Below are positions 6,672 to 9,809 of a DNA stretch of 38,580 nucleotides, one piece after another. A program made the position numbers and the translations under genes. The stretch's first letter is position 1. Each line of letters opens with the position of its first letter. Source of the stretch: Nitriliruptoraceae bacterium (GTDB lineage: Bacteria > Actinomycetota > Nitriliruptoria > Nitriliruptorales > Nitriliruptoraceae); the NCBI GenBank assembly GCA_007136095.1, contig SLHP01000105.1:1-38580 (forward strand), read 5' to 3'. The notes beneath the pieces are model-generated. The model did no database searches. It had not been told where the DNA came from and saw nothing but the letters and a program-made list of their open reading frames with translations.

Positions 6672-6779
6672 TCCACACGCACACCGGCGCACTACCTTGG
6701 ACCGGCGGCTGCGGGTGGCACGAGACACCTCCGGGGACACGACCACCCCGACGTGCCGCCTCGCCGGCCCGGAGTCCCG

Positions 6780-7751
6780 ATGTCACGTTCGACCCCGGCG
6801 CAGCCGCAGCGTGCGACGGCACGGAGCGGCATCCTGCTGGCACTGCTGTCGGCAGCCACGTTCGGGTCGTCCGGGCCGATGGCGAAGGCGCTGATCGAAG
6901 CCGGCTGGACCGCCGGCGCCGCGGTCCTGGTGCGGCTCGGCGGGGCGGCGGTGCTGCTCACCATCGCTGCCGCATTCATGCTACGGGGCCAGCGGTGGCG
7001 GCTCCATGCCGGCTCGGCCCGCACACTGCTGCTCTACGGGCTGATCGCCATGGCCCTCACCCAGTTGGCGTTCTTCAACGCGGTCCGCACGTTGGACGTC
7101 GGCGTCGCCCTGCTGTTGGAGTTCCTGGCACCGGTCCTGTTGCTCACCTACACCTCGCTGCGCGCACGGACGCTGCCGAGCCGGCCGACCCTGATCGGTG
7201 CCGGACTGAGCCTGGTCGGCCTGGTCTTCGTCCTGGACCTCACCGGAGCATCCTCGCTGGATCCCGTCGGCGTGCTGTGGGGACTGCTCGCAGCCTGCGG
7301 ACTGGGTGGGTTCTTCATCCTGTCCGAGCGGCGCGATGACGACCTCCCGCCGCTGGTCATGGCCGCCGGCGGGACCGCGGTCGGGGCGGTGGCCATCGCG
7401 GTGGCTGGCCTGATCGGTGTGGTCCCCCTGGCCTTCACCGCGACCGACACCGTGCTCGCCGGTGGCGCGGTGAGCTGGATCATCCCGGCAGCCTGGCTGG
7501 TCCTGATCTCGACCGCCGCCGCCTACCTGAGCGGCATCGGAGCGATCCGCCGGCTCGGATCACGGTCCGCGTCGTTCGTGGCACTGACCGAGGTGCTGTT
7601 CGCGGTGCTGGTCGCCTGGATGCTGCTGGCGGAACTCCCCGGCCCGCCCCAGTTGCTCGGCGGCGCATGCATCATCGGTGGCATCGTGCTGATCCAACGC
7701 CACCGCCGCGTCCCACCACCACCCACACCCGCCCCCGCGATCGACGCCTGA
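6780..7751 (+). CDS. EamA/RhtA-family exporter (DMT superfamily)
   Basis: A 323-residue inner-membrane protein with about ten helices formed by two EamA repeats, as in RhtA (threonine/homoserine efflux) and related metabolite exporters. Helix 1 carries LLALLSAATFGSSGPMAKALIEAGW, the usual family opening; repeat 1 includes ALTQLAFFNAVRTLDVGVALLLEFLAPVLL, and repeat 2 ends SFVALTEVLFAVLVAWMLLAELPGPPQLLGGACIIGGIVL. The ATG at 6780 has GGAG (6771-6774) five bases upstream, which favours it over the in-frame GTG at 6753. A Pro-rich tail closes the protein. Substrate not determinable. Its stop is three bases from the end of the PIG-L remnant on the other strand. Confidence 0.9.
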   Translation: MSRSTPAQPQRATARSGILLALLSAATFGSSGPMAKALIEAGWTAGAAVLVRLGGAAVLLTIAAAFMLRGQRWRLHAGSARTLLLYGLIAMALTQLAFFNAVRTLDVGVALLLEFLAPVLLLTYTSLRARTLPSRPTLIGAGLSLVGLVFVLDLTGASSLDPVGVLWGLLAACGLGGFFILSERRDDDLPPLVMAAGGTAVGAVAIAVAGLIGVVPLAFTATDTVLAGGAVSWIIPAAWLVLISTAAAYLSGIGAIRRLGSRSASFVALTEVLFAVLVAWMLLAELPGPPQLLGGACIIGGIVLIQRHRRVPPPPTPAPAIDA

Positions 7752-7754
7752 CGC

Positions 7755-8030
7755 TCACCGCAGGAACTCCGGATCCGCCATGGGATGCTCGCCGACCCCC
7801 CAGGTAGGTCCGGTGCTCGGCCCGGGAGGCGATCGCGAGGTCGATCGAGTCGCTCACATCGACCGCGTGACCGGAGCGCGGCGATCCGGTCACCAGGACA
7901 CGGTGATCCGCCGAGTTGCGCGACCCTGGCGCCCCCGGTCCTCGCGGTGGTTGATCGTCACCGCCGTGTCTGGGCGACGGCGCCGGATGGCTCCCGTGCG
8001 GTCGTCGGGATGCGCGACCACGGCCAGCAC
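7755..8030 (-). pseudogene. Decayed PIG-L/LmbE-type deacetylase
   Basis: Fragments of a PIG-L N-acetylglucosaminyl deacetylase lie in order on the minus strand. VLAVVAHPDD (GTG at 8030, with a GGGGGAGG sequence just upstream) is the N-terminal metal-binding segment, but the Glu that normally follows is replaced by Arg. It is joined almost directly to AIRRRRPDTAVTINHRED, which belongs to the middle of the family. After a stop and in another frame comes HAVDVSDSIDLAIASRAEHRTYL (7804-7872), and in a third frame VGEHPMADPEFLR ending at 7755. Intact members have about 240-280 residues, so roughly two thirds is missing, through internal deletions plus frameshifts. Metal-dependent activity must be lost. 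The reading rests on remembered family motifs. Confidence 0.7.
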
Positions 8031-8603
8031 CCGCCCGACCTCCCCCGCGAACACCGCGGCGCTGTCGAACAGGGTGGTCCCGGCCGTGAAGTCCCGATGC
8101 TCCGGCGTGACGTCGTCGAGGTCGATGTGGGCCGTGCCCGACCCGTCATGACGGGCCAGGACCAGTCCGACCGGTACGGCGTCACGAAGCACGACCCAGG
8201 CCAGGCGATCGTCCCGTAAACCCGCGAGCCCGGGTTGCGACCGACGGATGTCCTCCGCGTGGAACGCGAGGAACCGCGGGAGGTACACCCCGCTGATCGG
8301 CCACCGGAGGACCTCGAAGTACGCGTCGGCCGACCGATCGCGCAGGATCCGGCTCAGGTGGTAGCCGTGGACCAGGATGATGGCGACGTTGGTCACGATG
8401 ACCGGGACCGAACCGATCAGCACGGCGTCGACGGAGGACACGACCGCACCCACGAACCCGATGATGCGCAGGCGCAGGACCCAAGCCATCACGAGGCTCA
8501 GGACCACCAACGGCGACACGAGGTAGCCGACCAGTTCGTCGAGCAGAGCGGTGCCGCGCTTGCGTGCCAGTACTGTCGCAGACGCTCCCGCCCGCCCCGA
8601 CAT
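7890..8603 (-). CDS. Membrane protein (YgjV-like), 3' end probably replaced
   Basis: The predicted 237 residues start with three hydrophobic helices (about 22-42, 45-62 and 64-82), whose pattern LVMAWVLRLRIIGFVGAVV...GSVPVIVTNVAIILVHGYHL resembles the small inner-membrane YgjV family. A soluble part follows with LDDVTPEHRDFTAG, like the acetyltransferase-type tail seen in some of these proteins. The last 50 or so residues, from VLAVVAHPDD on, are PIG-L remnant in the same frame, so the gene appears to have lost its own 3' end and to read through. The start ATG at 8603 has no clear ribosome binding site and is only 12 bases from the start of the divergent MFS gene, so it may be leaderless. Function unknown; the product may be non-functional. 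Confidence 0.55.
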   Translation of the reverse strand: MSGRAGASATVLARKRGTALLDELVGYLVSPLVVLSLVMAWVLRLRIIGFVGAVVSSVDAVLIGSVPVIVTNVAIILVHGYHLSRILRDRSADAYFEVLRWPISGVYLPRFLAFHAEDIRRSQPGLAGLRDDRLAWVVLRDAVPVGLVLARHDGSGTAHIDLDDVTPEHRDFTAGTTLFDSAAVFAGEVGRVLAVVAHPDDRTGAIRRRRPDTAVTINHREDRGRQGRATRRITVSW

Positions 8604-8615
8604 CCGAGGTTGATC

Positions 8616-9809
8616 ATGGTCAGGTCGGCGGGCGCTGCCAGCGGCCGCCGTGCGATGGTGATCGCGTCACTGGCCACGGTGGCCGGCAGCCTGCCGGTCT
8701 TCTTCACGGCCGCGATGGCGGTGCAGGTCAGCCACGACCTGAACTTCGGGACGGTCGGGATCGGAGCGGCGGTCGCCACGTTCTTCGGGACGATGGCGCT
8801 CACCTCGATGTACCTGGGCCGTGTGGCCGACCGGCTCGGCGCCACCCGGTCGCTGCGCATCGCATCGTTCGGCGCCGGGGTCTCCGCGCTCGGCATCGCC
8901 ACCTCGGCGCGGGCGTGGTGGGCACTGGCCGGGTGGCTGGTCGTGTCCGGAACCGCGGCCGCACTCGCCCAACCGGCCGCCAACCGGTTGCTGATCAACC
9001 GTGTGCGGATCACACGCCTCGGCACCGCCTTCGGACTGAAACAGTCCGCACCGCCGACCGCATCGATGCTCGCGGGCCTCAGCGTCCCGGTCATCGCGCT
9101 GACGGTCGGTTGGCGCTGGGCGTTCGCCGTCGCAGCCATCGCGGCGGTCGCGATGGCGATCGCGGTCGGTCCCACACCCTCGAGTGCCCCTGCGCCGGTC
9201 GCACGCAAGGGGCGGCAGAAGCTCCAACCGCTGCGCGACCCTGGGACGCTGCTGCTGCTCGCCACGGGTTTCGGACTGGGCTTCGCCAGCAACTCCGCGG
9301 TCCTGGCCTTCTTCGTCGATGCAGCGACGCGATCAGGTCTGTCCTCATCGGCCGCGGGTCTGGTCTTCGCGGCGTCCAGCCTGGCGGCGATCATCGTTCG
9401 GGTCGTGGCGGGGATCGCCTGCGACCGCCTGACCTTCCGTCCCCTGCGCCTGTGCGCGGCACTCCTGACCACCGGCGCGGTCGGGGTCGCGCTCCTGGCC
9501 GCGGGCGGTCCCGGCCTGGTGCCGGTCGGCGGGATCATGGCGATCGCCGGGACCTGGGGGTTCCCGGGGGTCTTCTGGTTCGCCGTACTCCGGGCCTATC
9601 CGCAGACACCCGGCAGGATCACCGGCGCGATGGCCCCGGCGTCGGTCGGTGGGGTGCTCGGCCCCATCGGGTTCGGTGTACTGGCCGCGAACGTCAGTGA
9701 CGGGGCGGCATGGTGGGCGACCGCAGGGGTCGCGCTACTGGCCGCGCTGGCGATGCTGTTCGGTGCGCAACGGCTCGCTGCCGATGCACCACCGCCCGCC
9801 ACCACTTGA
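8616..9809 (+). CDS. MFS transporter
   Basis: A 397-residue major facilitator with twelve predicted helices in two halves, separated by a basic, Pro-rich loop around residues 190-205 (ARKGRQKLQPLRDPG). Between helices 2 and 3 the signature YLGRVADRLGATRSLR matches the G-x-x-x-D-R-x-G-R-R loop of the superfamily. The C-terminal half contains ASNSAVLAFFVDAATRSGLSSSAAG, typical of CynX/NimT- and monocarboxylate-like carriers. The start ATG at 8616 has GAGG (8606-8609) six bases upstream. It is divergent from the membrane-protein gene with only 12 bases between start codons, so its promoter must lie inside that neighbour. Substrate unknown. Confidence 0.87.
   Translation: MVRSAGAASGRRAMVIASLATVAGSLPVFFTAAMAVQVSHDLNFGTVGIGAAVATFFGTMALTSMYLGRVADRLGATRSLRIASFGAGVSALGIATSARAWWALAGWLVVSGTAAALAQPAANRLLINRVRITRLGTAFGLKQSAPPTASMLAGLSVPVIALTVGWRWAFAVAAIAAVAMAIAVGPTPSSAPAPVARKGRQKLQPLRDPGTLLLLATGFGLGFASNSAVLAFFVDAATRSGLSSSAAGLVFAASSLAAIIVRVVAGIACDRLTFRPLRLCAALLTTGAVGVALLAAGGPGLVPVGGIMAIAGTWGFPGVFWFAVLRAYPQTPGRITGAMAPASVGGVLGPIGFGVLAANVSDGAAWWATAGVALLAALAMLFGAQRLAADAPPPATT

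Follow-up and report, generated by a model that had tools for sequence, protein, structure and literature searches.

Deacetylases of the LmbE-like type carry a metal-site motif defined as HxDD, and their second and third metal ligands are spaced 97-148 residues apart, according to a review of these enzymes (PMC4101496). One family member of solved structure, LnmX (5bmo), is the best solved relative (E 1.5e-65) of a protein encoded intact in genome G011, which matches the PIG-L/LmbE family PF02585 with E 3.1e-25 and whose counterpart is the subject of this report. Bacterial pseudogenes of the deletion type, such as those of Salmonella, have been damaged by deletion and by change of frame and have whole counterparts in relatives; most of the Salmonella examples, 346 of 378, bear only one lesion (PMC2916853). 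The locus described here resembles them in the first respect and differs from most of them in carrying several lesions and in being joined to its neighbor. Its deacetylase pieces align along nearly the whole of an LnmX-like PIG-L/LmbE protein (PF02585), from which they differ in that 78 and 31 codons and both ends are gone and the frame is broken twice. Its other part is like a YgjV-type protein (PF10688) with a GNAT-like tail, in the sense that relatives up to 69% identical match PF10688 and, weakly, GNAT families; it differs from such a protein in that the C-terminal ~40 residues are replaced by the PIG-L remnant and four otherwise invariant residues are changed. Comparison of sequences argues strongly that the locus is the wreck of two genes: a pseudogene of ordinary kind, produced by deletions fairly recently and joined to a neighbor that is itself truncated.

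The window (the whole stretch of 38,580 nucleotides that was analysed) is contig 39 of a fragmented genome from an uncultured actinobacterium (Nitriliruptoraceae, class Nitriliruptoria), 92% complete and spread over 269 contigs that total 3.06 Mb. An open frame encoding 237 residues at 7890-8603, - strand, is the sole frame between a convergent EamA transporter gene (6753-7751, + strand; PF00892, E 1.2e-24; 72% identical to its homologue in G007) and a divergent MFS transporter gene (8616-9809, + strand; PF07690; 59% identical to its homologue in G003). Both flanking genes are whole. The end of the EamA gene is 3 bases from the remnant, and the MFS start is 12 bases from the ATG of the fused frame (window 8601-8618). 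No Shine-Dalgarno-like sequence is present in the bases preceding that ATG. With the two starts 12 bases apart, a further deletion may have taken the stretch in which the membrane gene originally began. In G010 (C1:4222855-4225763), an MFS gene akin to that of the window is present as several tandem pieces, which match the same parts of the query twice; this is perhaps a tandem duplication with decay.

The membrane-protein remnant with its GNAT-like tail occupies 8052-8603 (- strand). Its best relative, in G019, is 69% identical over residues 17-201 and the next, in G007, 63%; the membrane-protein match covers residues ~17-184 of the frame, and PIG-L remains start from near residue 184. The fused frame finds matches in 28 of 61 genomes at E<=0.001, some of them through the PIG-L tail alone. 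That the frame starts as a YgjV-like protein, as the first-pass annotation had it, is indicated through the relatives, three of five scanned exceeding the Pfam cut-off of 23.5 for PF10688 (Imp-YgjV); the frame itself has no match to PF10688 at E<=1 and yields a GNAT match alone, below threshold. GNAT families also match weakly in the second half of four of the five scanned relatives. (This half of the membrane protein, like the two clean in-frame deletions described below, is absent from the first-pass annotation.) The relatives go on for ~40 residues past an HRD..G..LF segment to a conserved HRRYL..GF end (..AHRRYL..MGF..), which the window lacks.

From 8051 to 7758 follow five collinear PIG-L pieces, all on the - strand; aligning them, with frameshifts allowed, to eight intact homologues puts every piece in order. 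The join between the two genes lies at 8045-8057; the exact base is uncertain because V-F-A fits both (around this point the G019 membrane protein reads RVFAADGI and several PIG-L homologues read LF-x-G-D-V-G-R). Piece 1, FAGEVGRVLAVVAHPDD (8001-8051), includes HPDD at 8001-8012, which matches the HxDD metal-site motif. The join of an in-frame 78-codon deletion (7995-8001) separates it from piece 2, GAIRRRRPDTAVTINHRED (7938-7994; 68% identity over 28 residues, E 1.4e-4), and a one-base frame change in a run of five C on the + strand (7930-7937) separates piece 2 from piece 3, GAPGSRNSADHR (7900-7935), which holds the third metal ligand, H. Beyond the join of an in-frame 31-codon deletion (7897-7902) comes piece 4, VLVTGSPRSGHAVDVSDSIDLAIASRAEHRTYLGG (7795-7899; 61% identity over 44 residues, E 2.6e-9); the stop codon of the fused frame is at 7890-7892. 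A second one-base frame change, in a run of six C on the + strand (7795-7801), leads to piece 5, GVGEHPMADPEFLR (7755-7799), which ends in a stop codon (7757-7755), the following ~23 residues of the homologues being gone. Pieces 1, 2 and 5 are in the fused reading frame, and pieces 3 and 4 together in one other frame.

The tail of the fused frame holds VLAVVAHPDD and TAVTINHRED. When the window's own genome is searched with the intact G011 protein, PIG-L matches are found in two places only, next to each other and collinear: 7795-7926 of the window (E 2.6e-9, 61%) and 7920-8003 (E 1.4e-4, 68%). The translated search is, in other words, significant, and the contention of the first-pass annotation that two genes have been joined by deletion, with VLAVVAHPDD and NHRED as PIG-L segments within the frame, is borne out by these matches, by the collinearity of the pieces and by spacing that is missing relative to eight of eight homologues. 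Its lower bound of 7755 is right, in that the last piece ends in a stop there. It also placed further pieces beyond the stop of the frame in two other frames; the pieces exist, but they lie in one other frame (7935 to 7795) and then in the original one (7799 to 7758). Its identification of GGGGGAGG as the former ribosome binding site of the PIG-L gene does not stand: GGGGGAGG is coding, for the G-E of F-A-G-E-V-G-R, and this peptide aligns with the F-x-[GD]-[DE]-[VI]-G-R that most intact homologues have; the frames of these homologues begin further upstream.

The internal lesions are sharply defined by the homologues. Between the last D of HPDD and the D of RRD(L/F) all eight intact proteins have 78 codons, and between the R of SADHR and the residue, an R in most, that precedes VLV or the corresponding triplet all eight have 31; both stretches are missing here, in frame. 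The second and third metal ligands, about 110 residues apart in the intact G011 protein, are brought to about 33 residues with a frame change between them. With the spacing so reduced and the third ligand out of frame, no deacetylase can result. Neither the fused frame nor the downstream frame matches PF02585, and a scan of the whole genome with that family finds two other genes only. What survives is still gene-like: 74 of 96 residues of the pieces are identical to the G011 protein (48-81 of 96 for the intact homologues), of 25 columns that are otherwise invariant they depart at 2 (each of the 14 intact proteins departs at 0-3), and GC content by codon position, 0.786/0.541/0.857, is close to that of the intact EamA gene; decay is therefore recent on this scale. 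Relative to homologues that are intact in close relatives (G001 and G002), the gene carries the lesions by which a pseudogene is recognized.

The joined DNA is confined to one genome. Sought in 35 genomes of the family, it occurs in its own genome and in 0 of the 34 others, and the comparison with related genomes that the first-pass annotation proposed accordingly finds the fused frame unconserved; 25 of the 35 match the DNA partly, through one gene or the other or through short chance stretches. The intact G011 protein has some match in 53 of 61 genomes, many of these being distant PIG-L genes. Full-length homologues at 69-78% identity are present in G001 and G002 (same genus), G006, G007, G022, G038, G039 and G046; among the same-genus genomes, two of three have an intact homologue, and G003 has distant matches only. 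A YgjV-PIG-L neighborhood, considered as the ancestral gene order, is absent from every relative stretch examined around either gene, and in two single-contig genomes that have both genes (G010 and G025) these are about 0.8 and 1.3 Mb apart. (Comparison of whole stretches by tblastx gave GC-rich noise only and was discarded.) In G001, the intact PIG-L gene has a flavodoxin homologue (L025:1383-1913, 69.7%) some 2 kb away, and the flavodoxin gene of the window is about 1 kb from the remnant; the intervening genes differ, and this synteny is for that reason only suggestive.

The identity of the lost enzyme bears on the proposal, made on first reading, that its loss might affect mycothiol synthesis. 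The intact homologue falls below the NCBIfam equivalog cut-offs for BshB1 (63.6 of 182.5), BshB2 (35.9 of 195.25), Mca (28.4 of 277.15) and MshB (23.6 of 224.35), so that family cut-offs lend no support to a mycothiol link. The same genome keeps an Mca gene, which at 300.3 is above the cut-off of 277.15, and an MshB-like gene, which at 220.4 falls slightly short of 224.35. With the Mca and MshB-like genes intact elsewhere and the homologue, nearest to LnmX, far below the thiol cut-offs, a mycothiol defect is not indicated and the proposal is weak. An intact paralogue of the lost subfamily, for which a search had also been suggested, is not found in the genome's own assembly (92% complete).

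The MshB-like gene is itself part of a fusion. On contig 200 of the same genome, a 529-residue frame (L001:520-2109, - strand) encodes an MshB-like deacetylase in residues 62-340 and a flavin reductase domain in residues 363-523. Unbroken fusions of this kind, 59-64% identical and free of inner stops, also occur in G015, G010, G033, G026 and G018, and in other relatives, G001, G009 and G029 among them, the MshB-like deacetylase and flavin reductase are adjacent frames. The fusion is like the wreck in placing two genes in one frame, and unlike it in being kept in five other family genomes, the wreck being in one genome only. The fusion looks selected, to judge by its conservation, and the conserved pairing of a mycothiol-type deacetylase with a flavin reductase may be worth a look.

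A plausible course for the deletion pseudogene can be outlined. A membrane gene and, behind it on the same strand, an LnmX-type PIG-L/LmbE gene would have come to adjoin. A deletion would then have fused the 3' part of the membrane gene to the 5' part of the deacetylase gene, in frame by chance. Comparison with the intact relatives shows that the deacetylase gene is, besides, short of internal stretches of 78 and 31 codons and of ~23 codons at its end, and that its frame is broken at two places. The internal deletions were probably generated by slippage between short matches; to go by the homologues, these would have been GAC or (often) GACCTC for the first and a shared arginine codon for the second.

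Several observations sit less comfortably with decay and have to be weighed. Both frame changes fall on runs of C, of five and of six, where sequencing error is possible for those two lesions, and the genome is in 269 contigs, as might be expected if the contig were misjoined and the frame changes were read errors. Such an artefact would have had to produce, inside 300 bases, the joining of two genes, two clean internal deletions and the loss of a C-terminus, with the flanking genes left whole, and in six intact neighboring genes the nine C/G runs of five are free of frame breaks; we consider it very unlikely. The gene join and both internal deletions are in frame, which for three joins has a chance of 1 in 27, a figure qualified by the fact that their in-frame state is also what first drew attention to the locus. 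The retained pieces, moreover, include well-conserved HPDD, NHRED and ADH, and their departures at invariant columns are no more numerous than those of intact genes. These features would suit a working new protein, a membrane domain with a miniature PIG-L domain, in which the frame is selected and the frame changes are errors or are recoded. Such a protein would have its ligands about 33 residues apart, against 97-148 in known LmbE-like enzymes (PMC4101496); its frame stops at 7890, ahead of the own-frame reading of most of the kept pieces; its GNAT-like tail is cut as well; and it is absent from the 34 other family genomes. It is hard to credit. Scarcely easier to entertain is the variant in which the fused frame once made a membrane-anchored miniature PIG-L-like domain with metal-binding residues, the in-frame deletions not being due to chance, and is now decaying or broken by read errors only.

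A different question is whether the PIG-L gene alone is dead, the membrane protein, ~40 residues shorter and with a foreign tail, still working; this reading overlaps with that of a deletion pseudogene. The protein keeps its helices and the greater part of its GNAT-like domain, and differences from G019 by codon position (0.228/0.136/0.426) follow a coding pattern. On the other hand, the conserved C-terminal HRRYL..GF is gone, a ribosome binding site is not evident, and at 31 columns invariant in 18 relatives the membrane part departs four times (S41W, L50F, F56S and Y59D, all within the membrane half), each relative departing 0-3 times. Near-invariant columns are unexceptional (departures at 8 of 56, compared with 8 of 55 in G003, 7 of 57 in G026 and 16 of 58 in G020). 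The window has no long branch in protein trees built for the membrane part (0.22, against 0.165 for G019) or for EamA, so that the trees alone do not show relaxed selection. Death of the membrane part is, for these two reasons, less sure than that of the PIG-L gene, and its decay can be claimed with less certainty; that it still functions is nonetheless rather unlikely. The product of the fused frame, if it is translated at all, would be a membrane protein whose GNAT-like tail is broken and whose end is meaningless.

The significance of the two-gene deletion pseudogene extends little beyond annotation. Automatic annotation would label 7890-8603 as a hypothetical membrane protein and overlook the dead deacetylase. 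The locus also warns against reading the loss of a PIG-L gene as a mycothiol defect, since other, fitting PIG-L genes are intact in this organism, and it illustrates clearly how a gene is deleted step by step in an actinobacterial lineage that is free-living.
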